From positions 1 through 64,000 of the forward strand of contig JANYDB010000039.1 in NCBI GenBank assembly GCA_025359985.1: a stretch of DNA of 64,000 nt. Reading direction: 5' to 3'. The translations under genes and the position numbers were made by a program. Source of the DNA: Burkholderiales bacterium (GTDB lineage Bacteria; Pseudomonadota; Gammaproteobacteria; Burkholderiales; Usitatibacteraceae). Each line of letters starts with the position of its first letter. The stretch's first letter is position 1. The notes beneath the pieces are model-generated. The model made no database searches, was not told the origin of the DNA, and saw only the letters and a list, made by a program, of their open reading frames with translations. Positions 5,477-44,060 of this stretch are shown here, piece after piece.

Positions 5477-6589
5477 TTATGCAATGGCCTGAAAGACGTA
5501 AATCCCGTTTTCAGCTTGTATTCGTTTGGCACGACCCGCGTACCAAAGATAATGTAAGTGCGCGATGGCCTCTCCCATTGCAAACACCAGTTGATGGTTA
5601 TCCAGCTCGCGCTTGAACAGTACGGGTAAAATTTCCGCCGCTGATTTAGGTTCACGAATAGCCACCATTAATTCCGCCAGCCGTTGTTCGTGATGCAGCG
5701 CCAACTGTGCAATTCGTTCATGTACACCCGTAAATACACGGTCATGCGAAGGCAATACCAGCGTCGCTGCGGGCAACGATGAAAATTTATCCATGCTGTC
5801 AAGGAACTGCTTGAGCGGATTGGCTTCCGGCTGATTGCCCCACACGCCGACATTGGTGGTGATGCGTGGCAGCACCTGATCGCCCGAAATCAGCACACTG
5901 TCACCGTTTAAAGAGTCAGTTGAAGAGCCGGTCGAAAACAATACCGCATGCTCAGGCGCATGACCCAAGACGGTCTTCACCGTCCAGTGCCGCGTACCAA
6001 TGCGCAAGCTGTCGCCGTCAATAAGCCGATGATATTGGCGGGGTAGCGTTGGGACACCGCGCTTGTAAGCATTGCTGCGTTCATTTTGTGCCACCGCAAA
6101 ATCAGGACGAATGCGGGCGAGTCCGTGCGCGATAAAAAACGCAGCCGTAGTGGCGCGGTCAAAGCCTGATGTGTCCTCGGCCGCCGCGTGAGCTGATAAA
6201 AATTCAGTGGCCGTCATCCATACTGGTGCGCCGGTACGCTCATGCAGCCATGCCGCGCAGCCGACATGGTCGGGGTGATAGTGGGTAACGATAATGCGCT
6301 TGACGGGCATACCCTGCATGGTCTCAACAAAGTGCCGTTCCCACCATGTGTGAGTCTGGGCCATGCCGTAGCCCGTATCGACAATCGTCCAGCCTCGGCC
6401 TTTTATTTCACCTCCACCATCCCCTGCCCCATCGCCCATCAGATCGCCATCCGCATCATGGTCTTCCAGCAACCATAAATTAATGTGATCAAGCTTGAAC
6501 GGCAGCGGCATGCGAATCCAGTAAATACCGGGTGCGACCAGAATGGATTGGCCAGGTGCTGGCGGGGTTCCATGAGGATAGGCAATCAT
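5477..6589 (-). CDS. MBL-fold metallo-hydrolase
   Basis: VTHYHPDHVG metal motif, WTIVDTGYG, GHAPEHAVL, LPSHDRVF. Confidence 0.9.
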   Translation of the reverse strand: MIAYPHGTPPAPGQSILVAPGIYWIRMPLPFKLDHINLWLLEDHDADGDLMGDGAGDGGGEIKGRGWTIVDTGYGMAQTHTWWERHFVETMQGMPVKRIIVTHYHPDHVGCAAWLHERTGAPVWMTATEFLSAHAAAEDTSGFDRATTAAFFIAHGLARIRPDFAVAQNERSNAYKRGVPTLPRQYHRLIDGDSLRIGTRHWTVKTVLGHAPEHAVLFSTGSSTDSLNGDSVLISGDQVLPRITTNVGVWGNQPEANPLKQFLDSMDKFSSLPAATLVLPSHDRVFTGVHERIAQLALHHEQRLAELMVAIREPKSAAEILPVLFKRELDNHQLVFAMGEAIAHLHYLWYAGRAKRIQAENGIYVFQAIA

Positions 6590-6686
6590 CGATGGTGTAC
6601 TCGGTTCCGCCTATTCAAAAAGCTTGCTTAATCGCACACTCAAATGCAAACTCATGCAGAAAGTCAAATTAACCACCATAAAAATA

Positions 6687-9038
6687 TTACTTGGTCATCG
6701 CCACAAACACACCGTCCCAGTTTTTGCCGGGAGGTTTGATCTTGAAATTCGCAATGCGCTGGAGATAAACTTTATAAACCTTACGCTGCGGATCGGATTG
6801 CGCGAGCACCGTCAACATTTGCTCAGCATCATCCCAACGCTGCTCTTTGTAACGATCCAGCGCGCGGTGAAAACGCTCAATTTCATCAAGTATTTGATCA
6901 ACAATTTCACCTTTTAAGCCTACCGGTTCAAAAATAGTGATGGGTTCCAATTTACCTTTGACGCGGATACGATCAAGCTCACGATAGACCACTAGCGGCA
7001 CAGTATTAACGATATTTTCAGAAACCAGAATACCGACGCCATATTCCTTGGTCTGCCCTTCAAGTCGCGCAGCCAGATTGACGGCATCGCCCATCACGGT
7101 GTACGCGCGACGGAACGTAGAACCCATATCGCCGACGCTCATAATTCCGCAATTAAGCCCCACGCCAATTTCTAGTTTCGGCCAGCCGCGTTTGAGATAT
7201 TCGGGGCCAATTTCCTTGATCCTTTTTTGCATGGCCAACGCCGACAAAAGCGCGTGCTCGGCATGCTTTTCATCCTTCAGTGGCGCACCCCAAAACGCCA
7301 TAATGGCATCGCCGATATATTTGTCAATGGTGCCGCGTTGTACCTGAATCGTTTCGGTCATCACCGTGAGATAGTCATTCATCATCGCGGTAAGTTCAGT
7401 TGCAGACAAACCTTCGGAAATAGACGTGAAATTACGCACATCGGAAAACAGCACCGTCATGTCGCGGCTTTCGCCTTGAGTGGAATAGTTGGCTGGATTT
7501 TTAGCCATTTCTTCCACCAGTTCTTTCGGTACATAGGTGCCGAAAATACCGGTGATCTGGCGCTTGGAGCGGGCCTCAATAAAAAAGCCGTAAGCCATGT
7601 TAAATAAGTAAAGTATGCCGATCATGAGCAGTGGCATTGCGAGCGGCAGTATCAGATTTTGGCCCCACCAGTATAGGTTAAACGCAATCAGCAGCGCGGC
7701 GGTTGCCACCACCGTAACTGTTGACCATATAGGATTTAATTTTACGAGGGCTACGGCAAGTATCAAACCGATTAACAAAATCATGCATATTTTGATGGCG
7801 GCTTCAAAGTGGGGCTTGCGTTTGATATTGTTATCCAGATAGCCGGAGATCATATTGGCATGGGTCTCGACCCCCGGATAAATCCGATCAACCGGCGTAT
7901 TGCGTAAATCAAACAAGCCTTGAGCCGAGGTGCCAACGAGTGCAATTTTCCCGTCCAGCTCGCCCGTTGTTAGTTTCCCCTGCAGTACATCAGTTGCGGA
8001 AATATAACGAAACATCGGCGAGCCACCACGGTAAGGAATGAGCGCGGTACCGTCATCATCGATGGAAACTTTCGTTTTATTGCCAAACTGAACATTGTCT
8101 AGACGAGCGATACCATCGCCTTCATCGTCACGCATTTTGACGCGGATCGCTTCGTTATCAAGATAGGTCCGATAGACCGCAGTTGAGAGCGATTCATAAA
8201 AGCCGTCTTTGTATTTAATAAAGATTGGCACTCGCCTCAGTACGCCATCAAAATCTATTTGCGGCAAAATATGGCCGGTCGCGGAGGCAGATTCCTGTAA
8301 CGGTTTAAGGTTGCCACTGTAACCGATGATTGCCTGCGAGAAAAAAGGCTTGCCATTAAACGTGCTGCTGGTGAAAGTAGATGCCGGCAATACCCCTAAT
8401 TCAAGAGATGCTGATTTATCGTTGCTTTGGTTACTGCCAGCTGCAAACGCCAACACTACGGAGTGTTTCGCAATTTCATCGGCAAAGCGCGCGTCAAAAT
8501 CGAGTGCGGGACGAATTTCTGCTAATTTTTCCTGAAATTCCGTGTTGGATTTCAGTTCATTTTTACTAAGTGATTCTAATTTTTGCAGTCCCGAGCTGGT
8601 GTCTGCTTCCGGAAAAAGTATGTCGAATCCGACCACCTTTGTCTTGTAATCATTAAACAGTTTCTTGACTAAAAGTGCCATTTTGTCCCGACCCCACGGC
8701 CAGTGACCCTCAGCTTCCAGACTCTTTTCGTCAATATCGATGATGACAATACGGGGGTCAATTGTTTCCGGCATGGTCGCCCGCAAACGGGTGTCATAGG
8801 TTTGAAGCTCTAGCCGCTGAAAAAAGGTCAGTGGCTCGCCGAATATATAGTTCAGAACAAACAGAGCAACGATGGCAATGCCGAGACCGGCGCGGATCGC
8901 GACGTTGATAGAAGAAAAATATTTTGTCCAGATCTGTCTGATATCAAACTTGGCGTTCATTTTGCTTCCCCGCTTATGTTTTTTTGTGAAAAGCCATTTG
9001 TTAAATTGGGCTAATCGTTTTTTGATAGACGGCGGCAT
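6687..9038 (-). CDS. CHASE2-domain class III adenylate/guanylate cyclase (start may be internal, near 8960)
   Basis: CHASE2 motif (PRIVIIDIDEKSLEAEGHWPWGRDKMALLVKKL) and cyclase catalytic motifs (DMTVLFSDVRNFTSISE, KYIGDAIMAFWGAP, GDAVNLAARLEGQTK). Confidence 0.93.
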   Translation of the reverse strand: MPPSIKKRLAQFNKWLFTKKHKRGSKMNAKFDIRQIWTKYFSSINVAIRAGLGIAIVALFVLNYIFGEPLTFFQRLELQTYDTRLRATMPETIDPRIVIIDIDEKSLEAEGHWPWGRDKMALLVKKLFNDYKTKVVGFDILFPEADTSSGLQKLESLSKNELKSNTEFQEKLAEIRPALDFDARFADEIAKHSVVLAFAAGSNQSNDKSASLELGVLPASTFTSSTFNGKPFFSQAIIGYSGNLKPLQESASATGHILPQIDFDGVLRRVPIFIKYKDGFYESLSTAVYRTYLDNEAIRVKMRDDEGDGIARLDNVQFGNKTKVSIDDDGTALIPYRGGSPMFRYISATDVLQGKLTTGELDGKIALVGTSAQGLFDLRNTPVDRIYPGVETHANMISGYLDNNIKRKPHFEAAIKICMILLIGLILAVALVKLNPIWSTVTVVATAALLIAFNLYWWGQNLILPLAMPLLMIGILYLFNMAYGFFIEARSKRQITGIFGTYVPKELVEEMAKNPANYSTQGESRDMTVLFSDVRNFTSISEGLSATELTAMMNDYLTVMTETIQVQRGTIDKYIGDAIMAFWGAPLKDEKHAEHALLSALAMQKRIKEIGPEYLKRGWPKLEIGVGLNCGIMSVGDMGSTFRRAYTVMGDAVNLAARLEGQTKEYGVGILVSENIVNTVPLVVYRELDRIRVKGKLEPITIFEPVGLKGEIVDQILDEIERFHRALDRYKEQRWDDAEQMLTVLAQSDPQRKVYKVYLQRIANFKIKPPGKNWDGVFVAMTK

Positions 9039-11213: not shown

Positions 11214-11559
11214 AGGGCAAAATTCCAGTATGAAAAATGTAGATAGAATATTTTTAGTTCAGCATCAACCGTTAGAATTTTGCCTGCGCGGTGTGTCGGT
11301 TTGATGACGTCTTAGCGAAATTGACTGCGACAATATAGCGGATCGATAATCAAGCTCGTTTGTTCTCAGCTCAGCGCTTCTGCGTAAAAAAGGGTGTGGG
11401 CAAATTACTGCTGATTTTTTACCTTATGTTCGTTACCGCACCGCCTGTTTCGGCGGGCCAACGTATTTTTAACTTTTTGGCAATATGACTTATGACTGTT
11501 AATTCCGATAGTCTGCACGGCAAAGACAAAACCCATAAAAGATTCGAGACCTTCAACGC

Positions 11560-31405: not shown

Positions 31406-31993
31406 GTGGAGCCGTTAAATTCATCCAGTCAGGTAAGTGAATTGTTGGCCGAAATAAAGGCCGGAAACGCAGGCGACAGCAGCGCATCAGCGCGACTGTA
31501 TTCATTGTTGTATCCCGAGATAAAACGGCTTGCCCGTTCCCGTTTGTACGCGGCGGGTGGTGTTACCAGCCTCAATACGACCGCCCTGGTTAATGAAGGT
31601 TTTTTACGCATGGCGCAACGAGAAGGGATGGCCGGTGAGTCACGCCTGCAGTTTTTCGCTTATGTAGGCAAAGTATTGCGCTCGGTGGTGCTGGATCATT
31701 TGCGCGCCGAGACTGCCGAGAAACGCGGTGGTAATCAAGTGCAGGTCACACTTTCGCAGGCAGAGTCGATTGCAGTTGCAGGGCGTGACAACTGGTTTTT
31801 GCTTGATCTGGCGTTAGAGCAGCTCAAAGACATGGATTACGCGTTGTATGAGTTGGTTGAGCTGCGCTATTTTGCGGGGTTGACCGTGAGCGAAATTGCG
31901 GCTTTGCGTAAGGTTTCTACCCGCACTATTGAGCGTGACTGGGTCAAGGCGAAAGCCATACTCGAAGAAATGGTCGAACATGCGCCCGAATAA
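31406..31993 (+). CDS. ECF-type RNA polymerase sigma factor (TIGR02999-like)
   Basis: LYPEIKRLARSRLYAAGGVTSLNTTALVNEGFLRM, VGKVLRSVVLDHLRAETAEKRGG, LTVSEIAALRKVSTRTIERDWVKAKAIL. Confidence 0.9.
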   Translation: MEPLNSSSQVSELLAEIKAGNAGDSSASARLYSLLYPEIKRLARSRLYAAGGVTSLNTTALVNEGFLRMAQREGMAGESRLQFFAYVGKVLRSVVLDHLRAETAEKRGGNQVQVTLSQAESIAVAGRDNWFLLDLALEQLKDMDYALYELVELRYFAGLTVSEIAALRKVSTRTIERDWVKAKAILEEMVEHAPE

Positions 31994-32002
31994 AGAGCTG
32001 GT

Positions 32003-35000
32003 GTGAATATTACTGACTGGCAACGCCGTTCGGCACTGTTTGACGAGGTGGTTGATTTGCCAGTAGAGGCGCGCGAAGAATGGCTGGCCGCGCTTGCTAA
32101 AAATGCTCCGCAGCATTTGGCTGCCGTGACAAAAATGCTGCTCGATTACGATCAGACCGAACCTGATCGCACCGCTGCACCGATGATTGGTGGTTTAGGA
32201 ACTGTCGAATTTGAATCCCGCTTGGATTGCGCCACGATGCCTGCAGATATGCAATTAAAATCTGGCGCGCTGATCGGCGCCTGGCGATTAGACCGAAAAA
32301 TTGGCGAAGGCGGCATGGGCTCGGTGTGGTTAGCCGCGCGTCAGGATGGACACTTTAAAGGCAGTGCGGCGATTAAATTTTTACGCACCGGTTCAGGTAA
32401 CACTGAGGTAGTGGAACGTTTTCTGCGCGAACGTCGTCTGCTGGCACGCTTGATTCATCCCGGTATTGCCCGCCTACTGGATGCGGGCACTCATGCGGGC
32501 GAGCCTTATCTGGTAATGGAATACATAGACGGCCAACCCATCACCGCGTGGGCGGCAGCGCATGCGCCACGTGTTGCTGACCGGATTTCACTGATGCTCA
32601 AAGTCTGTCGAGCTGCCGAATACGCACACAGCCAACTGATCGTACATCGCGACTTGAAACCGTCAAATGTGCTGGTAAACCGTATGGGCGAACCATCACT
32701 GCTGGATTTCGGTATTGCCAAGCTCATTGATGCAGCAGATGATGATTACGCGACTGCATTAACCCGCATTACCGGTCGTGGTTTCACTTTGGGCTATTGT
32801 GCGCCGGAGCAGATTACCGGTGAGCCAACGGGTGTGGCGGCTGATGTATTTTCGATGGGCGTGCTGTTGTTTGAATTACTGACCGGTACGCTGCCGTTTC
32901 GGCCCCAACAGGAAGGCCGTGCTGCACTTGAACACGCCATGGTGCATGCAGATGCGCGCAGCATTTCAAAAGCCCTTGACGAAGCTGCTGTATTGCCCGG
33001 CAATTTGCCCAGTAATCGCCCAGTGGATGCAGAGCGCACGAAAGGTGATCTTGAAGCCATTGTGGCCCGTGCGTTGCGCAAAAAACCGGCTGATCGCTAC
33101 CCGACTTTGAGTGCGTTTGCTGATGACCTTGAGCGATGGCTGAATAATTTGCCAGTCGCGGCACGACGCGGGAACTGGCAATACATGACCCTGCTGTGGC
33201 TCAAGCGCAATCGCGCACTGGCCGTCGTCGGGACGGCAGCGTTTATTGCCGTCAGTACCGGTATGGTCACGGCAATCTGGCAAGCTGAACGTGCCAGTGA
33301 AGAGGCATTGCGTGCAGACCAGGAAAAAGAAGTTGCGGTCGAGCAGCGTCGGCGCGCCGAGATCGCCACCGCACAGGCGACTGCCGCCTTGGCCGAAAGC
33401 GATCAGGCGAAGCGTTCCGCGTTGCAGGCCGGGCAACTGGCAGAGCGCAGCGCGTCACTGGCACGGCAGTCTGAACAGACGGCGATGCAAAACGAATTAC
33501 GCTCGCGGCAGGCAGAGGCCGACGCCGCCACATCCAGTCGCAATGCGCAGAAGGAAGCGGCCAAAGCCAAAGCGGTAAATCAGTATCTGGTCACCCTGTT
33601 TGAGAGCGCCGACCCGGAACGTATCAAAGGAGAAAAACTCACGGCTCGCGAATTGCTCGATTCTGGCGCGAAATCACTGACCACACAATTCGCGAATGAC
33701 CCGCAAACATTGGCGGAATTGCAAGCGGTGTTGGGACGGACTTATGTTGGCTTGTCACAGCCGAAAACAGCGATTCCGTTGCTTACCGAAGCGGCTGCAA
33801 CGGTGGCAACAAAATATGGGGATCGCTCAGTCGAGCATGCACGAATTCTCTATTCGCTGGCGCGCGCGGAATCGGAAATTGATAATTTTCCGGAAGCGCA
33901 GAAGCACTATCAAATAGCGCTGGACATACTGGAACCTTTAGACGGGATTGCAAGTGAGACTATTGTTACCGGCAAAACATATCTGGCCCATGCGCTACAA
34001 AAACAGGGGAAGTTCGCCGAAATTGATTCGTTGCTTGCGCCCGTGCGGGCCGCCATCATCGCGCAGCTGGGCGACCAGAGCTGGCTATTCGTCGAGATCG
34101 AAAATGCGCGCGCAGTGGCTCTGTCGGGTCAAGGCAAGATCAATGAAGAACACCGTATTCTGCTGAGTATTGAACCACTTCTAAAAGCACCGCCGCCCGG
34201 CAAACGCGCCGATGCGCTGGTGATCCGTAACAATCTGGCGATTGCTTTTGCGCGCATTGGCAATCTGGCTGAAGCGATTCCGCGAGCCAATGCAGCGGTT
34301 GCGGGCTTTATCGAGCACCTCGGGCCTGACGCCGAGCAAACACTAAAGACAATGTGGTTTTCAGGTGAGCTACTGCGGCAAGCCGGCCGCTATGCGGATT
34401 GCGCAACGCAGTATGAGCGTGTGGCGGAAATCCGGGCGCGGGTTACCGGCGAAACCCATCCACTAACGGTTGATGTGTTTTCAAAAACCGCTTCCTGTGC
34501 ACAACTAACCGGCAATGAAGCGCAGGCGGCGGCCTACACAGCACGTGCGCTGGCAGCGTTGGCGCCCACCGATCAGCCGCCGCAACGCAATGTGCTGCGT
34601 ACTCTGCTGACTTTGCAGCTATATATGCTTGATCGTGCTGACACTCCACGAGCGCGGACTTTGCTGCTGCGAACAAAGGCGCTTGCAGTGGCACTGAATC
34701 TTTCTGCAACCTCACCGGAATCATTATGGATCACGGTCGTTGAGGCTTGCACTGCAGCGCGGGCAGGCGACGTTAAAGCAGCCCTGCGTGGAATGGACGC
34801 GCTATTAGTAAAGGCACCTATGTTCACAAATCTGCCCGCTGTCAGATCGCTGTATGCGTACTTTCTGGTACTGGACGGTCAATTTGAACATGCACAGGCC
34901 GAGATGATTGAAGCCCGCAAGTTGGCCGCATTGCGCATGACGGAAACACACCCTGTTTACCTCACTTTTAATTATGTAGATGCGCTCATTGCTCGACCCA

Positions 35001-35089
35001 AAGAGGGCGCCAGCGCACTACGCGCGCTTGAGACGGGTGCCGGTAGAGCTGCGCGCCTGCCGTTGGCACCGAACTGGTTTGGGCTATGA
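32003..35089 (+). CDS. Ser/Thr protein kinase with transmembrane segment and C-terminal TPR-like region
   Basis: Intact kinase motifs GEGGMGSVWLA, AAIKFL, IVHRDLKPSNVLVN, LLDFGIAKL, GYCAPEQITGEPTGVAADVFSMGVLLFELLTG; transmembrane segment ALAVVGTAAFIAVSTGMVTAIW, coiled coil, TPR-like helices. Start 9 bp after the sigma-factor stop. Confidence 0.93.
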   Translation: MNITDWQRRSALFDEVVDLPVEAREEWLAALAKNAPQHLAAVTKMLLDYDQTEPDRTAAPMIGGLGTVEFESRLDCATMPADMQLKSGALIGAWRLDRKIGEGGMGSVWLAARQDGHFKGSAAIKFLRTGSGNTEVVERFLRERRLLARLIHPGIARLLDAGTHAGEPYLVMEYIDGQPITAWAAAHAPRVADRISLMLKVCRAAEYAHSQLIVHRDLKPSNVLVNRMGEPSLLDFGIAKLIDAADDDYATALTRITGRGFTLGYCAPEQITGEPTGVAADVFSMGVLLFELLTGTLPFRPQQEGRAALEHAMVHADARSISKALDEAAVLPGNLPSNRPVDAERTKGDLEAIVARALRKKPADRYPTLSAFADDLERWLNNLPVAARRGNWQYMTLLWLKRNRALAVVGTAAFIAVSTGMVTAIWQAERASEEALRADQEKEVAVEQRRRAEIATAQATAALAESDQAKRSALQAGQLAERSASLARQSEQTAMQNELRSRQAEADAATSSRNAQKEAAKAKAVNQYLVTLFESADPERIKGEKLTARELLDSGAKSLTTQFANDPQTLAELQAVLGRTYVGLSQPKTAIPLLTEAAATVATKYGDRSVEHARILYSLARAESEIDNFPEAQKHYQIALDILEPLDGIASETIVTGKTYLAHALQKQGKFAEIDSLLAPVRAAIIAQLGDQSWLFVEIENARAVALSGQGKINEEHRILLSIEPLLKAPPPGKRADALVIRNNLAIAFARIGNLAEAIPRANAAVAGFIEHLGPDAEQTLKTMWFSGELLRQAGRYADCATQYERVAEIRARVTGETHPLTVDVFSKTASCAQLTGNEAQAAAYTARALAALAPTDQPPQRNVLRTLLTLQLYMLDRADTPRARTLLLRTKALAVALNLSATSPESLWITVVEACTAARAGDVKAALRGMDALLVKAPMFTNLPAVRSLYAYFLVLDGQFEHAQAEMIEARKLAALRMTETHPVYLTFNYVDALIARPKEGASALRALETGAGRAARLPLAPNWFGL

Positions 35090-35166
35090 CGAGTCATTGT
35101 TTTCATAACGGCTGAGCATGCGCAGATATAAACATATCAGCCACATAAATTAAAAACTGAAGAGTA

Positions 35167-35230
35167 AACCCCAGCATTAAAAGGCATCTTGAAGCATTTT
35201 TGCTCCAAGATGCCTGTTAATGCTGGGGTT
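35167..35230 (+). terminator. Long near-perfect hairpin (30-bp arms, 4-nt loop), likely terminator or RNA structure
   Basis: AACCCCAGCATTAAAAGGCATCTTGAAGCA-TTTT-TGCTCCAAGATGCCTGTTAATGCTGGGGTT; 28 of 30 positions pair. TTTT runs across the 3' edge. Confidence 0.75.
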
Positions 35231-35329
35231 TTGAAATTTAAATTAATCAACAGAGGTAAATGTCGTACTTTCCAGATGGCCTGCGTCTGATAGGTTGATG
35301 CATATTTCCGCCATCGATTGGGAGAAAAC

Positions 35330-36319
35330 ATGAAGCCTGTCAACATGATTGAAATCGCCAAACTCGGGTTGGCCACCATGAGCTTAATTACGGCAAGTTG
35401 GGCGGTGTCAGCCCAAAGCCAGCTCACCCCGCCAACTCCACTCAAGCCGCCCACACCGGCTGGCACGGGTGACAGCACCACCCCTCTTTCAACCGGGCTT
35501 GCCAAGCCCAACGCGCCACTACAGATGGACAAATTATCGACGAATAATCTACGTCCGCAAAATATAAAAATTGGTAGCGAAACAATCGCTTTGCACATGC
35601 TGCCCGATACACAGATTTTCAAGGGTGCTTCCGGCAGAACCATAAGCGTGGCACGTTTGAAGCAATTGCAGGCGTTGCTGGACCCCAGCCTGCCTGCCGA
35701 AATTAAAGCGGGTGGCCCGATTGTTAAGGCGCAGCCTGGTCAGTCGCTCGCCAGCATGGCAGCGCTGCCTGCCAATACGCGTATCACGCTCGCCAATGGC
35801 CATATCGCCAGTGCAGGGCAGTTGAACGAAATTAAAGGCTTAATCAACAAGATGAACCAGCCGCGCACCATTACGCCGGTGCCAATAGTGCTGGCCAATT
35901 CGCAGGCGCGGCTAACAGTAGGCCCTACGCTTACGTTGGCAGACGCATTAAAGCGGCCTGCCAGTGAACCTGTCAGGGTGGGTAACTACACTTATACAGC
36001 TGAACAATTGCGGCTTATTGACAGTAAGCTTCGCGCCAGCAAGGTTGATCCACGCGGCCTGGTTGAACGGGAGCGAGGCAGTGGCACGTCAGTTACCAAT
36101 AAACCAAACCTTAATGTGATTCCTTCTGGCCCTCAAATAAAAATAGCTCGTGGCTCATCCATGGTTTCAATGCTGGATAAGCCGGATAGCGCGGTGCTGG
36201 TTTCCGCCAATGGCAAAGTCACCACGGTCGGCGCACTCAAACAATATTTGCGCGAAAAAAACCTGACGGCTGCGCAATTTGATGCGCAGAAAAATGCCAA
36301 AGTACGGCCCACAAAATAA
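35330..36319 (+). CDS. Exported protein with four degenerate ~40-aa repeats
   Basis: Signal peptide to AVSAQ, Pro-rich linker, four repeats. ATG 35330 preceded by GGGAGAAAAC. Confidence 0.8.
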   Translation: MKPVNMIEIAKLGLATMSLITASWAVSAQSQLTPPTPLKPPTPAGTGDSTTPLSTGLAKPNAPLQMDKLSTNNLRPQNIKIGSETIALHMLPDTQIFKGASGRTISVARLKQLQALLDPSLPAEIKAGGPIVKAQPGQSLASMAALPANTRITLANGHIASAGQLNEIKGLINKMNQPRTITPVPIVLANSQARLTVGPTLTLADALKRPASEPVRVGNYTYTAEQLRLIDSKLRASKVDPRGLVERERGSGTSVTNKPNLNVIPSGPQIKIARGSSMVSMLDKPDSAVLVSANGKVTTVGALKQYLREKNLTAAQFDAQKNAKVRPTK

Positions 36320-36353
36320 CGGCGCTAATTAGAAAATAGAGAGGGATTTCATC

Positions 36354-38507
36354 ATGAATCAGTTTTCAAAATTAATGCGCATTGAGCATTCGCGTTTCCG
36401 GTATTTCATGACACGCATATCGAGTTCATTTCTGCTGGCGTTGGGCTTCAGCTTTGCCTCGATGCCGCCTGCGCATGCCATGGGTGCAGTTGAAGCCATT
36501 GAAAAGGTATGCAATGCCACCAATGGATTATGCGGACCTGATTTTTCCAGTTTGTCTACACACTGTTTTCATGCCGGAAAAGGTGACGAGGTTAGCTGCG
36601 CTATTGCCATCATCTCAGCCATCGCTGGAGTCGGCCAAGTCGGCAGTGCAATCGACACCATCGTCATGTGCGCAAAAGACGTCAAAAATTTAAATGCCAT
36701 TCAGGGTAAATGTAAACAAGCGCTGGATGGACTAGGCCTGCCCGCAGACAAATACAACGAGGCGATTGTTATTGTCAAACGCTGTGCGGCGATCAAAGAC
36801 GTGGATGACACCATCATGTGCGCCGATTATTTACTGAATTCATCCTTCGCGGCCGACGCCGGTGTGACGGTTCCGTCGTGGGTTTATTTTTTGTTTGACA
36901 TATATGACGACATTAAAGCCAAAGACTATTGGGGCTTGGTTTATCATGTCGGTGCCACGATAGCCTGTATCGCTGCGGAATATTTCAGCGGCCTGGATGT
37001 TTGCAGTTTCCTGAAAGATCTTGTTGCCCTAGGGGTGGCTATCTATGACGCGGCAGGTGCCGTGGTCGATTTTATTAGCGACACCTTTAGCTCCGAAAGT
37101 AGCAACATGCCGCCGAGCGATTACTTCGCTCAGAATTGGGCACCTCAGGTAGAAGAGTACGCACAAAACATGTTCCAGTACCGCACAAACGGTTATTGGG
37201 GCGGGCCGCACACCGGTCCTGAAGGTATGCGGGATAACTGCTACGACTATTTCCACGGTCACACCGTTGGATCTGCAAATGCCAATAGTGTTTGTGATGC
37301 GATGCTCTCGGGTAGCGGCGGCAGCGGTGGCGCCTTTATTCAAAAGGGATTTTCGCAAATGGTGGCGCGCCGTGGCGCACAATATTTGTTACCGAATCTG
37401 GTCAGGGCCGCCGTCAAGGCAAAACATGCCGAACTCAATGCCAAAGGTATAAAAGTAGCGTTGGAGGACGTTTCCGCGATATACGGTTATTTTTTCAACG
37501 GGCCGGTTAATCCCGACGCATACAGTGCAACCTTTAAATATTACCAACCGGATAATTGGCCCAAAGGAAGCGTTGCCGCCTTAGCTCACGATATGCTCAC
37601 CGCGGCAACGGATTTGCCCGCTTACCGGCCGCTCACCGTTCAGGACGGCGAGACGCTGGCCAAGAGGAAGCTGGCTGAAGCTGAAAGTAAAGTCGACATT
37701 TCGGCCCAGGCGCTGATTAAAATTAAAAATGCGCAAGTGACAGCAGCCAAGACGGCCGAAGCAAATAAAAAAAATGCGGAGAGTATAGCCGCATGGTTAG
37801 CCAAACCCCTGAATGAATTGATCGCGGGCTGCAAGCACAAGAAAGATCCTAAGACAGTTTGCGAGGCGGGTGTGAAGGCGTTGTATGAAGATTGTAGCGC
37901 GCAGTTTTTCGCCTTCGCTAACACGCATCCGTTAGTGGATGATTTTGATAACTCTGCCAGCAAGCCGCTTGTAAAACAACGCGCCGAAGATTACGACAAA
38001 TGTATCGCATCAATACGCGGCTACATCAAATCCTTACCCGATTATAAAAACGCCGATATTCACGACAAGATAAGCGATCACTTGTCCGCTGCCGCTCCTA
38101 CCGTATCGAATCTGCCGCCTGCCAACAAAGTGACGCTGAAGCCATCAACCAACCTGCCGTCGGGAACAGCGATAACGGGCAATGCGACCTCTACCCACAG
38201 CCCAACATCGCTCGGCGGCGCTATCGGCGCAAGCAGCGGCAACGCATTCAACGCGCAGAATTTAGTTGGCAAGACGCCACCTGCAGCTCTGACATCACTT
38301 GCGCCGCCATTGTCGTTGTCATCGCCGAAAAGCGATGAGGCTGACCCCGCATTGAAGCACTGCAAGCCATATGAGAAACGTAAAGATGAGGCTATTTGCA
38401 GTAACGCAAGCGGATTCAGAGCCTGCCAAGCGTTGGTCAATGCGGGCAAGGCCAAGTCCTGCCGATTGAAAGGCTCGGCGGAGATTTATATGAAACCGGC
38501 TCGCTAG
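36354..38507 (+). CDS. Large exported Cys-containing hypothetical protein (717 aa)
   Basis: Signal peptide (SSSFLLALGFSFASMPPAHA), many Cys after cleavage, Pro/Ser/Thr-rich stretch near the C-terminus. No family recognised. Confidence 0.78.
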   Translation: MNQFSKLMRIEHSRFRYFMTRISSSFLLALGFSFASMPPAHAMGAVEAIEKVCNATNGLCGPDFSSLSTHCFHAGKGDEVSCAIAIISAIAGVGQVGSAIDTIVMCAKDVKNLNAIQGKCKQALDGLGLPADKYNEAIVIVKRCAAIKDVDDTIMCADYLLNSSFAADAGVTVPSWVYFLFDIYDDIKAKDYWGLVYHVGATIACIAAEYFSGLDVCSFLKDLVALGVAIYDAAGAVVDFISDTFSSESSNMPPSDYFAQNWAPQVEEYAQNMFQYRTNGYWGGPHTGPEGMRDNCYDYFHGHTVGSANANSVCDAMLSGSGGSGGAFIQKGFSQMVARRGAQYLLPNLVRAAVKAKHAELNAKGIKVALEDVSAIYGYFFNGPVNPDAYSATFKYYQPDNWPKGSVAALAHDMLTAATDLPAYRPLTVQDGETLAKRKLAEAESKVDISAQALIKIKNAQVTAAKTAEANKKNAESIAAWLAKPLNELIAGCKHKKDPKTVCEAGVKALYEDCSAQFFAFANTHPLVDDFDNSASKPLVKQRAEDYDKCIASIRGYIKSLPDYKNADIHDKISDHLSAAAPTVSNLPPANKVTLKPSTNLPSGTAITGNATSTHSPTSLGGAIGASSGNAFNAQNLVGKTPPAALTSLAPPLSLSSPKSDEADPALKHCKPYEKRKDEAICSNASGFRACQALVNAGKAKSCRLKGSAEIYMKPAR

Positions 38508-38628
38508 TAAATCAGAGAAGACGATGAGGGATGAGGCATTGTCGGTATGTATAACCAGCTTAAATCGTTGCGTCAAAAACTTAAATTTTTATGGGCTGTT
38601 TTTTAAAATTAAATCACGGAGAAACAAC

Positions 38629-39222
38629 ATGAAGCATCGCAAATTAATCACACTCATTGCTGGGGCTGTCATTTCGGGGAGCGCTATGCAGGGCCAAGCA
38701 CAGCAGAGCCAGCTTGGTGCGCCCGGGGCGGCGCGGTCACAGTCCAACACCCTAGCGCCACCACCCGCCTTGAAGGTGCCGGATACTAGCGATACCAATC
38801 GGCCGATTATTCGTATTCCCGGCAAGCCTAACGTGGATCTGACCATCATCACCTCCGGCGAGCGCGCTCAAGATGTATATTTCGCGACCATCAAGAATAT
38901 TGGTACGAGCACGTCCGGGGTGTCCAATCTTTATTGCGCTGCAAATATATCAACACCTGGCGGCGGTGGCTATGTGATCGAGCGTGTGTATGTCGCGAAG
39001 CCTCTGGCGCCTAATGCCATTCATGTTTTCACTTGCGACTTTAAGGCCAGCAAAGGCGAGTTTAATTCCTCCCAAGGCGCAGTCAAGCCTGGCGAAAAAA
39101 TATTTGATGTGCATTTCATTATTAATAATCACAAACAGATTGTTGAGACCAATTACAACAACAACGATGTACACGTAAAGCCCGGTATTTTTGGCCAGCC
39201 GGTCAAGCCTGGCAAAGATTGA
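38629..39222 (+). CDS. Exported CARDB-like protein
   Basis: Signal peptide MKHRKLITLIAGAVISGSAMQGQAQ; C-terminal IFDVHFIINNHKQIVETNYNNNDVHV typical of CARDB folds. ATG 38629 preceded by ACGGAGAAACAAC. Confidence 0.72.
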   Translation: MKHRKLITLIAGAVISGSAMQGQAQQSQLGAPGAARSQSNTLAPPPALKVPDTSDTNRPIIRIPGKPNVDLTIITSGERAQDVYFATIKNIGTSTSGVSNLYCAANISTPGGGGYVIERVYVAKPLAPNAIHVFTCDFKASKGEFNSSQGAVKPGEKIFDVHFIINNHKQIVETNYNNNDVHVKPGIFGQPVKPGKD

Positions 39223-39437
39223 TGCGATACAAACGGCCTTTCATTATCAGAATTCATGTTCAGAATTCCACGCTATAAAAAATAAAAATTGGCTACAGAC
39301 GGGCGTTTCAAGGTAAAAGTGCCTGGAGATGCCCGCCATTAGTAGTGTTTCATTAAAAATAATGCAGCACCCAGTTTTTTCATGGCGATGCGCAGTGACT
39401 TGAGACTGGCCTGTGTTTTTTAAGAAGGCGTAAATCG

Positions 39438-40028
39438 ATGTATCAAAACGCAATAATGGCGGTGAAAAGGTTGGCGTTGGCGGGCGTCTGGTTGATGGTC
39501 GTCACCGAGGGATTAAGCTCTTCATGGGTAGCCGCGCAGATGCCGTTCGGGTTAAAACAAATGCCATCGATCAATACGGAAATCCCATCCGCCGCCACTT
39601 CTTCATTACTTACACCCTCGCTAAAAAAATCGAGCAAACAACCGGCCATTGAGGTGAGATCACTGGTCTTAAAGCCCGGTGAATTTCCACCGGCGAGCCC
39701 TGCTCAATACAAAGTGGCTTTTGAATGCACCATCCGCAATATTCCGCCACAAACCGATTTCGATCTGTTCCCGCGTTATCGCTGCGATCTGGATAAGGTG
39801 AGAACGGCGGAGGTCAACAGGCTGCCCATTTATCGCATCGATATTTTTCCCTCTGCAGATGGCATCACCACCAAAATCGTGCTCATTGCAAATAAAAACC
39901 CCAAAGATATGACACTGCCAAACCACATTCGTGCCGCGTTGCAGCTTTATCGTGATCAGTCCGCAAAAGAGAGCGTGTCAGTGCTTAAAGATTTTTTTTA
40001 TGCCGATGGCTTGCTGGAAAGCAAATAG
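39438..40028 (+). CDS. Exported hypothetical protein
   Basis: N-terminal signal-like segment to AAQMPFG, then Pro/Ser-rich linker and globular region. No family recognised. Confidence 0.65.
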   Translation: MYQNAIMAVKRLALAGVWLMVVTEGLSSSWVAAQMPFGLKQMPSINTEIPSAATSSLLTPSLKKSSKQPAIEVRSLVLKPGEFPPASPAQYKVAFECTIRNIPPQTDFDLFPRYRCDLDKVRTAEVNRLPIYRIDIFPSADGITTKIVLIANKNPKDMTLPNHIRAALQLYRDQSAKESVSVLKDFFYADGLLESK

Positions 40029-40275
40029 AAAATATTTGCCCGCTAAAGATAATCGTTGTCGGTTGTCGCATTTGTGGGTCAGCTTGCGTCTGTGTAGAAG
40101 TGAGGCTTAATCCGACGGAGGCTAGATCGTGCAAGCCGTCAGAAAATCGTTACACATAACCAAGCGGCGTCACTGACGGCGCTGCTGCCAAGTCATAAAT
40201 AGACAGCACAAAATGCCGGCTAATTTTCGGTACGAATCAATATAAATCGAATCATCACCATTAACAGGAGCAGTT

Positions 40276-40722
40276 ATGTACCTAAACCTCAATCGTTTTA
40301 CCGCAGTCCGTTTATTGATGCCATCACTTCTGGCTGCTGCCTTCACCGCCACTTTGGCCGTCACGGCTAGCGCCCAGAATTTGAAGCCTGGCCAATACGA
40401 ATACACCACGAAAACAGAGGTATTCGGCATTTCGATACCGATCAATTTCAAGCAGTGTGTTACGCAAAAGGATGTGGATTCCAACAACGCTTATGTCAAC
40501 AAACAAGGCTTGGACGGTTGTACGCCTCCCGATGTCAAGCGCAAAGGCGGCGATATCACCATTAAATATTCCTGCGCCAAACCAAAGATGACGGGCGAAG
40601 GTAAAGGCACAGTGACGGAGGATACTTTTACGATGGATATGAAAGTCATCCAGCACGATATGGGCGATAGCGTAGTGAAGACCGCACTCACTGCCAAGCG
40701 TCTTGGCGAATGTGCCAAATAA
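40276..40722 (+). CDS. DUF3617-like periplasmic protein
   Basis: Signal peptide to VTASAQ, then LKPGQYEYTTKTEVFG, QCVTQKD, DITIKYSC, and C-terminal AKRLGECAK. Confidence 0.75.
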   Translation: MYLNLNRFTAVRLLMPSLLAAAFTATLAVTASAQNLKPGQYEYTTKTEVFGISIPINFKQCVTQKDVDSNNAYVNKQGLDGCTPPDVKRKGGDITIKYSCAKPKMTGEGKGTVTEDTFTMDMKVIQHDMGDSVVKTALTAKRLGECAK

Positions 40723-40739
40723 TTTCTGGTGGAGATGAT

Positions 40740-41510
40740 ATGAAATCCCTAAAACAGTTTTTGATCAAAATGTCCTGCGTTGGCACGTTGGCTTTATCCG
40801 GTGTGGCCGCTGTTAGCGCAGCATATGCCGAAGGTAAAGACCCGGTTTCTGACCGTTCATCCACCACTAAAAAATTGGAAAGTCTGGGCAAGGTTGATAT
40901 GGCCACGCGTCCGCTAGTAACAGTGTATGAGGTAACGTCGAATGTGGGCGAGATTGATGCTCGCGCTGCAACGGCGATGTTTACCACCGCATTGGTCAAG
41001 AGCCGTCAATTCCGGGTGCTGGAGCGCAATAAAATCATGGGCGGTGTCGCCAAGGAACGCGAGATGAATCAAAGCGGTGTCAGCTCCGGTAATAGCGCGA
41101 CCCGCCAGATCAAGGGAGCCAATGTTATTTTTGAGGCCACTTTCTCGGAAGCAACCGCGTCCAAAAAAACCTCATCTGGTGGCTTTTCTATTGGAGGTTT
41201 GCAGTTGGGCGGAGGATCGAATCAGGATGAAGTAGGTATGGATGTGCGCGTCCTGTCGGTCGGCACAGGTGAGGTGCTGGACGCCATCAATGTGCGCAAA
41301 GCGGTGGAGTCGAGTCAATCAAGCGTAAGCGGGATTGGTGCGCTGGTGGATACTATTGCGTCGGCTAAAGGCAAGAATTTAAAAGGGTTTACGCCAGACG
41401 CAAATTTCCAGTCAGCACGTAAGGAAAGTATGGATCGCGCATTGCGTGCGTTAATTGAGCAGGCGATTTTTGAGTTGGCCAAGCGTGCCGGTGAGTGGAC
41501 AGATGATTAA
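40740..41510 (+). CDS. CsgG/HfaB-family protein
   Basis: RPLVTVYEVTSNVGEIDARAATAMFTTALVKSRQFRVLERNKI and DEVGMDVRVLSVGTGEVLDAINVRKAV are CsgG-like. Signal peptide ends near AYA-EG. Confidence 0.8.
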   Translation: MKSLKQFLIKMSCVGTLALSGVAAVSAAYAEGKDPVSDRSSTTKKLESLGKVDMATRPLVTVYEVTSNVGEIDARAATAMFTTALVKSRQFRVLERNKIMGGVAKEREMNQSGVSSGNSATRQIKGANVIFEATFSEATASKKTSSGGFSIGGLQLGGGSNQDEVGMDVRVLSVGTGEVLDAINVRKAVESSQSSVSGIGALVDTIASAKGKNLKGFTPDANFQSARKESMDRALRALIEQAIFELAKRAGEWTDD

Positions 41511-42276
41511 ATTGGGCGCCACGCGGCCATCAACACGAACGTCAGATTTGGCGCGTGCCATTTCGCACAGCGTGTCCGGGTTTGGATTATTGGTTGCATT
41601 AGGCTCGGGGGCTGCCTCATTTGCGCAGACTATTCTGGAACAGCCCACACTGGCTGGCGCTACTGCGCCCCTGCCTAGCCAAGGGGGGGGCAGCCTGCAT
41701 CTTTCGTCACGCCGTGAAGGCGCTTTTCCGTATCTGCCCAATGCCGCTTATGTCATCACCATCAGGGTGCCTGAGGAGGCGTCAAGAGAGGGCTGGCGTT
41801 GCTGCTGGATTGAAGCTTATTCAAGAGAAACCGCAAAATTACTGTCTGCGCGATACCGCAAAACGGTAATAGGAAACGATCCGGATATGATTTTCGATGC
41901 GGCTCGAACAGAGGCTTCTATCAGGCAAATTGCACCAGGTATTTACGAGGGCTATTTGGCGTTGGGCGGGACGCGTATTGCCCGTAACTATGCAGCACGG
42001 CTTTATATACATTTATATCGACTCGGCGGCACGGTCGATGGGCTCGATGTTGCGCAAGGTGAAATGTTATTTGCTGCGCGTACACATGACCGGGTGGCGC
42101 GCAATTTTCTTAATGAGCCGGTATTGAATGTGCGGTTTATGTATCAACCTCGTAACGGCTGGGATAATGAAAATGGCAGGCCTTACGGGCAGCCGGATTT
42201 AACCGGTTCGCCGCCTTCGCAACTTCCGAATTACGCACCGCCGTCGCAACTCCACGATCAGCGGCCTCCAAGATAA
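41503..42276 (+). CDS. Exported hypothetical protein overlapping the CsgG-like gene by 8 nt
   Basis: ATG 41503 lies inside the stop region of the upstream gene (ATGATTAA). Signal-like N-terminus to SFAQ; Pro-rich tail PPSQLPNYAPPSQLHDQRPPR. Confidence 0.72.
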   Translation: MIKLGATRPSTRTSDLARAISHSVSGFGLLVALGSGAASFAQTILEQPTLAGATAPLPSQGGGSLHLSSRREGAFPYLPNAAYVITIRVPEEASREGWRCCWIEAYSRETAKLLSARYRKTVIGNDPDMIFDAARTEASIRQIAPGIYEGYLALGGTRIARNYAARLYIHLYRLGGTVDGLDVAQGEMLFAARTHDRVARNFLNEPVLNVRFMYQPRNGWDNENGRPYGQPDLTGSPPSQLPNYAPPSQLHDQRPPR

Positions 42277-42716: not shown

Positions 42717-44060
42717 ATGAATTCCACGCCACTAGATGTTTTTACGAAAGCGGCAGCTCTTCCGCCGGATGACCCGTTGCGCATCACGCTGCATAACGAG
42801 GTGCATGCACGACCAATGGCGCGTGTAAGGTTGCCAGCACTCATCATTTACGTGGCTGTGCTGAACGCCGAGGTAACGCGAGAGCAAGAGTGTGGACACC
42901 TGCGAAACTTGCCCAATCAACACGCGTTATCGTTGGATAGCTTGAACAATAATTTTTTGCGGTTGCGCTTTGAAGGCTATACCGTCAAATGGGAACGGCA
43001 TACCGAATTTACCCGTTATAGCATCGTGCAGCCGTTGCCCGCCGCCGCCTTACTGGGAGTGGGCGCATCTGATCCGGAATTGCTATCTGCTTTGGTGATT
43101 GCGCCTGAATGGCTGCGTAATATTCCGGGGCGCACGGTAGCTGCCATTCAGCTCGCCATCGTGAATGGCGATCTCAGCAATGAAATAGCCCTGATGGCTC
43201 AGGCGCATACCTGGTTTGGCAGACGTGCGGTGGTGGCTTCGCAAATGGGCAATGGGCATTCATGGGCGATAACGGAATTCTGTATCGGCGCAGACGGCTA
43301 CGAGCGCATGCTGGTAATCGCGCCGCCCGGCACCAGCGAAACGCGTGCCGGCCGCATCACCCATCGCCTACTAGAGCTTGAAACCTATCGCCTGATGGCG
43401 TTGCGTGGCTTACCTGCGGCTAAACAGCTGGGGCCGATGTTGGCAGATGCGGAAAGCGGGCTGGCGGATATCACCGCGCAACTTGAAAACAAGACCGCCA
43501 TGGATCAGGATTTATTGGATACGCTGGTGTCACTGGCGGCGCGGGTGGAGCGTGCCACTGCGCTGCATGTGTACCGTTTTTCGGCCACACGCGCTTACGA
43601 TACGCTGGTGAGCCAGCGTATCGCCGAGCTGCGCGAAAAGCCGATTCCTGGTACGCAGACGATTGGTGAATTCATGCAGCGTCGCTTATCACCCGCCATC
43701 GCGACCGTGGCAGCTACCGCGCAACGGCTGGCCTCATTGTCCGAGCGGGTTTCACGCACCAGCGCGTTGTTGCGGACCCGAGTGGATATTGCCACCGAAG
43801 TGCAAAATCAGCAGTTGCTGGAAAAACTCACGCGCGGTCAGGCGCTTCAGCTACGTCTGCAATCGACAGTAGAAGGCCTATCGATCGCGGCTATTTCGTA
43901 TTACGTGATCAGCTTATTGCTCTACTTAAATAAAGCGCTCAAAGCTGTTGGTATGCCAATCGATCCTGAGATCATCACCGGCGCAATGATTCCGCTGGTG
44001 CTATGGGCCGTCTGGCGCACCACACGGCGCATTCACGCCAAGCTGAAAGCAGGAGATTAA
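42717..44060 (+). CDS. DUF3422 family membrane-anchored protein
   Basis: LHNEVHARP near the N-terminus, RITHRLLELETYRLMALRGLPAAK, two C-terminal transmembrane segments. Confidence 0.85.
   Translation: MNSTPLDVFTKAAALPPDDPLRITLHNEVHARPMARVRLPALIIYVAVLNAEVTREQECGHLRNLPNQHALSLDSLNNNFLRLRFEGYTVKWERHTEFTRYSIVQPLPAAALLGVGASDPELLSALVIAPEWLRNIPGRTVAAIQLAIVNGDLSNEIALMAQAHTWFGRRAVVASQMGNGHSWAITEFCIGADGYERMLVIAPPGTSETRAGRITHRLLELETYRLMALRGLPAAKQLGPMLADAESGLADITAQLENKTAMDQDLLDTLVSLAARVERATALHVYRFSATRAYDTLVSQRIAELREKPIPGTQTIGEFMQRRLSPAIATVAATAQRLASLSERVSRTSALLRTRVDIATEVQNQQLLEKLTRGQALQLRLQSTVEGLSIAAISYYVISLLLYLNKALKAVGMPIDPEIITGAMIPLVLWAVWRTTRRIHAKLKAGD

Follow-up and report, generated by a model that had tools for sequence, protein, structure and literature searches.

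A CsgG-like protein and exported orphans in a putative sigma factor/kinase-controlled gene block of a Usitatibacteraceae bacterium

Does a CsgG-like gene lying among exported orphan proteins, downstream of a sigma factor gene and a protein kinase gene, mark a secretion system, and do these genes belong together at all? The question is raised by a stretch of 64,000 nucleotides (the window; positions 1 to 64,000, forward strand, of contig JANYDB010000039.1, assembly GCA_025359985.1, a Burkholderiales bacterium of the Usitatibacteraceae), in which nine plus-strand genes, g1 to g9, occupy positions 31406-42276. On the evidence of recurrence in other genomes and of a common promoter motif, the block is a real unit, and it is very probably controlled as one. 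The features are listed below; L007 is one of the related loci described in the next section, and PWM denotes a position weight matrix score.

31406..31993, plus strand: g1, extracytoplasmic function (ECF) sigma factor (TIGR02999/PF07638 above cut-off)
32003..35089, plus strand: g2, Hanks-type Ser/Thr kinase with a tetratricopeptide repeat (TPR) ectodomain (PF00069 and TPR matches)
35166..35231, no strand assigned: terminator-like hairpin between the kinase gene and g3 (-47.4 kcal/mol, z -10)
35261..35288, plus strand: promoter motif site 1, 42 bp 5' of g3 (PWM 34.4)
35330..36319, plus strand: g3, exported orphan (signal peptide; positional counterpart in L007, weakly similar, E 2e-4)
36354..38507, plus strand: g4, Cys-rich exported protein of ~700 aa with 20 Cys, of a module-wide family (leave-one-out profile E 3.6e-11)
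38629..39222, plus strand: g5, exported, CARDB-like under cut-off (CARDB 14.1 bits)
39438..40028, plus strand: g6, exported orphan (47% identical in L007)
40064..40091, plus strand: promoter motif site 2, 185 bp 5' of g7 (PWM 31.8)
40276..40722, plus strand: g7, exported DUF3617 protein (PF12276 E 9.2e-18)
40740..41510, plus strand: g8, CsgG-like, without lipobox or constriction loop (PF03783; alignment with E. coli CsgG)
41503..42276, plus strand: g9, exported orphan with C-terminal APPSQL motifs (56% identical in L007)

Recurrence of the block and its promoter motif

Co-occurrence across genomes had been named as a check by an earlier, sequence-only reading of this DNA, and the families do recur together: sigma factor, kinase, DUF3617 protein, a Cys-rich g4 relative (734-855 aa) and a CsgG-like protein were found within about 12 kb in five further genomes. 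The module loci are L007/L036, from the genus of the window, L008 and L009, from a second genus of its family, and L010 and L011 (two Rhodoferax-titled records); L012 comes from the genome of L008, Betaproteobacteria bacterium GR16-43. In all cases found, a close g8 relative was accompanied by the remaining module genes, and DUF3617 was present in all module loci. Queries with the genes flanking the block in the window gave no match in the other module loci, and in L010 and L011 the module genes are distributed over both strands, so that the block is not merely one inherited stretch. Counting the window's own genome each time, the g8 family was found in 4 of 28 genomes sampled from the genus and family, and its clade is rare at wider range (6 of 399 order genomes, 4 of 369 in a class draw and 3 of 399 in a phylum draw).

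Thirty upstream regions of module genes from six loci, a few being the same DNA on both strands, were used for motif discovery. The pair TGTCG-18 bases-CGTC occurred in 18 of the 30, while in 20 shuffled sets no pair occurred in more than 3. Most transcription units in all six loci are preceded by the motif. The resulting two-part consensus, TGTCGYA-N15-GCGTCTKA, has variable spacers, and the spacing of its halves has the geometry of ECF promoters. Exact sites numbered 18 in the module loci, where about 0.1 is expected per 20-kb locus; the 14 loci used as controls, four of which hold the remaining sigma-kinase pairs of the window's genome, had none. In the block, the two sites precede g3 and the DUF3617-CsgG-g9 unit, and the next-best window sequence scored 12.9 (PWM); an extra exact match at 11332 on the minus strand, distant from the block, scores below those listed and was excluded from the matrix. 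All of 21 sites (including two near-matches in L010 and the OmpA-gene site described below) were oriented to the next gene, at a median of 57 bp from its start.

A genome-wide scan with a stricter motif returned four sites in the window's genome: two in the block, one within a coding sequence, which was regarded as a chance match, and one 69 bp 5' of a DUF4892-OmpA gene on an unlinked contig (L059, G000:C3:5728-5755, minus strand). As the motif search was blind to this gene, its site constitutes an independent confirmation of the motif. The encoded protein is 58% identical to that of the L010 module, where the gene lies two genes after CsgG, and the L011 module holds a counterpart. The L059 gene adjoins one that reads like glmS. 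Relatives without the module carried 0-2 stricter-motif sites per genome, approximately as many as were obtained with the reversed control pattern.

The sigma factor and its kinase

The sigma factor g1 matched PF07638 (E 2e-38) and TIGR02999 (148.1 bits, cut-off 126.15), the family call being made through the latter model, which is not ECF43-specific, and it is 61-80% identical to the sigma factors of the other module loci. By alignment, its residues 57-60 in region 2.2 read NTTA and replace the DAED motif, and the TTA was invariant across the three loci aligned. Its neighbour g2 matched PF00069 (E 1.5e-41) as well as TPRs and has intact catalytic motifs (GEGGMG at 101, HRDLKPSN at 215, DFG at 235 and APE at 267), with a cytoplasmic kinase domain, a transmembrane segment at about 405-425 and a TPR ectodomain.

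In ECF43 sigma factors, the acidic DAED of sigma2.2 is absent and a TTA-type motif stands in its place (EcfP STTA; EcfK T51), the Thr of which is phosphorylated by a neighbouring kinase, whereby the sigma factor becomes active (PMC8999054, PMC13147305). The pairs EcfK/PknS of Xanthomonas citri and EcfP/PknT of Vibrio parahaemolyticus share with the window the adjacent kinase with a transmembrane segment and TPR ectodomain, and the TTA-type replacement of DAED (STTA/QTTA there, NTTA here). They differ in output, which in the window is a CsgG-like/exported-orphan module and not a type VI secretion system or polymyxin resistance. Because the NTTA of the sigma factor and the PknS-like layout of the kinase match these published pairs, we infer with good support a phospho-switch of g1 by g2, for which Thr59 of g1 is the most likely candidate phosphosite.

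Conservation of the kinase is uneven. The ectodomains in L007 and L011 are 25-29% identical to that of the window, against 64-72% for the cytoplasmic part, and the sensor part may have been replaced in these two loci; for L010 and L008 the ectodomain identity is 42-46%.

Four more sigma genes above the TIGR02999 cut-off are present in the same genome (contigs C74, C114, C83 and C60; L037-L040), each directly 5' of a Ser/Thr kinase gene, and the pair on C60 is followed by a 1243-aa protein and further exported proteins. Elsewhere, a lipobox-bearing CsgG relative (L022, G284) has in its vicinity a different sigma-kinase pair, at about 40% identity, and a gene for a lipoprotein-like product of 525 aa; the module promoter motif was not found at this locus.

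Exported orphans and layout of the block

All open reading frames that the sequence-only reading had placed on one strand are present at the coordinates it gave, and most of its labels were right, including that of g4 as a Cys-containing protein. Heuristic prediction placed a Sec-type signal peptide, without lipobox, at the start of every product from g3 to g9, and Pfam-type searches of the block proteins gave no family match for g3, g4, g6 and g9. Two labels fared less well. The CARDB match proposed for g5 was seen, but under the cut-off (14.1 against 22.7 bits); L011 contains a CARDB protein above it. The description of g3 as a repeat protein is weak, its self-alignment score of 63 lying within the range of shuffled sequences (mean 38, maximum 68). 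Nor is tight packing confined to 40276-42276, as had been thought: g8 and g9 share 8 bases, and the gap between g3 and g4 is just 34 bases.

The hairpin claimed 3' of the kinase gene is indeed strong and spans 66 bases. A hairpin of unrelated sequence (-61.9 kcal/mol) stands at the same position after the kinase in L007, as would be expected of a terminator rather than of a conserved RNA. An Rfam search of the window gave no matches, and sigma-70 promoter and terminator scans were at about chance level. A neighbouring DUF3422 protein (window 42717-44060) had best congener matches only 41-45% identical, low for the same genus, and was dropped as an uninformative synteny marker.

The most distinctive of the orphans is g4. 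A profile of its five other relatives recovered the window protein at E 3.6e-11 (1e5 sequences), shuffled sequences giving no score, and the C-terminal Cys motif of the family is invariant. With the window g4 as sole query, genome contigs gave no matches, the divergence of g4 being too rapid for such a scan. Among 399 order genomes, the family was seen outside the three module genomes of the sample in a single distant case. A weaker paralogue elsewhere in the window's genome (L048, G000:C16) has a similar four-Cys C-terminal motif. This protein and the distant relative L047 (G145), of 873 and 1128 aa, have neither CsgG nor the module sigma factor nearby, and a DUF4892-OmpA gene lies near both.

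Between the window and L007, the sigma factor (80%), the cytoplasmic part of the kinase (72%), the DUF3617 protein (80%) and the CsgG-like protein (83%) are conserved, whereas g3 (23%), g4 (29%), g6 (47%), g9 (56%) and the kinase ectodomain (29%) are divergent. This contrast between machinery and orphans would be compatible with surface-exposed products and a sensor that tracks them. APPSQL motifs recur just after CsgG (window 42200-42276; g9 of L007; L010 10686-11180; L011 10617-11126) in proteins that are otherwise barely alike. L011 also encodes a small exported protein (6448-7050) in which VTLPxFTMTG occurs three times at the C-terminus and which may be a repetitive client.

The CsgG-like protein and the competing readings

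The CsgG-like protein g8 matched PF03783 with 77.3 bits (cut-off 20.8, E 1.3e-21) and is the sole CsgG-like copy in the genome. Its best solved relative is E. coli CsgG, by sequence (E 1e-10) and by Foldseek, and the two membrane-hairpin regions of CsgG retain their lengths. The Foldseek search of the g8 model also listed GNA1162, LpoB, FlgT and PelC. The ring or scaffold lipoproteins PelC, LpoB and GNA1162 share the fold, but they are weaker matches than CsgG, and g8 differs from them in having no lipobox and in keeping regions of CsgG hairpin length. A further relative of CsgG, HfaB, belongs to the holdfast anchor HfaABD of Caulobacter and is believed to position proteins at the cell surface in the absence of a complete curli set (PMC6707917). 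The likeness to HfaB is by description, and the partners differ: no curlin repeat of an HfaA-like partner was found in the window's genome, although a very divergent HfaA could escape. By analogy, g8 may act like HfaB, or as a soluble ring like PelC/LpoB. Among distant CsgG relatives, those of L027, L028 and L029 lie near exported proteins of ~410-430 aa with similar C-termini, and in L029 a DUF3617 gene is located 4 bases 5' of the CsgG relative gene.

We consider a phospho-switched surface or envelope regulon with a CsgG-like platform rather probable. The membrane kinase g2 would sense an envelope or outside cue through its TPR ectodomain and phosphorylate g1, most likely at Thr59 of NTTA, where the phosphate would add negative charge and, by analogy with EcfP/PknT and EcfK/PknS, allow g1 to bind RNA polymerase. 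Active g1 would then read the TGTCGYA-N15-GCGTCTKA promoters, site 1 driving g3-g4 with possible read-through to g5-g6, site 2 driving DUF3617-CsgG-g9, and the unlinked DUF4892-OmpA gene being a further target, while the hairpin would insulate sigma-kinase transcription from the output genes. The g3-g9 products would reach the periplasm through Sec; g8 would probably assemble in the outer membrane as a ring or platform for export or anchoring of the fast-diverging orphans, g4 foremost, with the DUF3617 and OmpA-like proteins as putative periplasmic or peptidoglycan-linked partners. Export or anchoring through g8 is itself a tentative proposal, to which we give somewhat less than an even chance.

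Several observations weigh against this reading. No lipobox is present in g8 or was seen in its close relatives, and a 15-column stretch of E. coli CsgG, which we take to be the site of the constriction loop, is missing in all members aligned. The g8 model is poor (predicted local distance difference test (pLDDT) score 58 overall, about 40-50 at the hairpin regions), and that of g4 has a mean pLDDT of 38, no fold match and only the last ~50 residues well modelled. In the window, the sigma gene, g5 and g6 each have no motif site of their own (the L007 counterpart of g6 and the L036 sigma gene have one), and that g1 reads this motif we infer from their constant association. Divergence of the orphans could also reflect loose constraint rather than surface exposure.

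In an alternative reading, an envelope-stress regulon, phospho-sigma control would be the same and nothing would be secreted: g8 would be a periplasmic ring or scaffold without a pore, like PelC, LpoB or GNA1162, and the orphans would serve in repair, either in the periplasm or bound to peptidoglycan. The lack of lipobox and constriction loop, the presence of GNA1162, LpoB, FlgT and PelC among the Foldseek matches, the motif at an OmpA-type gene and the function of the ECF43 factor EcfP in polymyxin resistance all fit this account, but CsgG itself is the top match in sequence and fold, both hairpin-length regions are retained, and rapid divergence is atypical of housekeeping repair; we regard it as somewhat unlikely. 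More specific, and distinctly unlikely, is a dedicated export and display system in which the constriction-less CsgG clade, with DUF3617 as an escort in the periplasm, would export the large, rapidly diversifying Cys-rich g4 and orphans specific to each lineage; the TPR ectodomain, whose divergence in two loci is as fast as theirs, would sense these clients or their targets and feed back on their production through sigma phosphorylation.

A curli-like (type VIII) amyloid export system with unrecognised fibre subunits would share with the window the CsgG domain and the exported proteins alongside. As the sequence-only reading had noted, however, curli partners are not recognisable in the block, and CsgF and curlin repeats were not found in the whole genome, the E. 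coli control being positive; for CsgE, the block proteins gave no Pfam match and no genome-wide search was made. Unlike in E. coli curli, g8 has neither lipobox nor constriction-loop stretch and the genome neither CsgF nor curlin repeats, for which reason a curli system was rejected, and with the g3 repeats not significant we hold the amyloid variant to be very improbable. A chance neighbourhood, in which a sigma-kinase pair happens to lie beside unrelated exported genes, draws on the five such pairs in the genome, which make one near any given gene not rare, and on the hairpin that divides the kinase from g3; it was rejected on the promoter motif, and with co-occurrence repeated under altered flanks and order its probability is close to nil. 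Of the CsgG-type module under a sigma/kinase switch that had originally been proposed, the single module under such a switch is upheld by co-occurrence, which answers a refuting condition set by that reading, and by the motif; g8, which has no lipobox or constriction loop, would be at most a candidate channel and the orphans its candidate clients.

Neither the type of regulator nor the CsgG fold is new. For the gene combination, the promoter motif, the g4 family and the constriction-loop-less CsgG clade, no description was found in a search that covered the subscription literature thinly, and no paper was found on DUF3617, on CsgG with an ECF sigma factor and a Ser/Thr kinase, or on an ECF43 promoter motif. 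DUF3617, DUF4892-OmpA, the Cys-rich orphan family and the constriction-loop-less CsgG clade, for which the literature searched held no joint role, are now linked. What was a list of orphans becomes a regulon that can be tested, its promoter defined and a candidate phospho-switch named, and it would give ECF43-type kinase control another kind of output.

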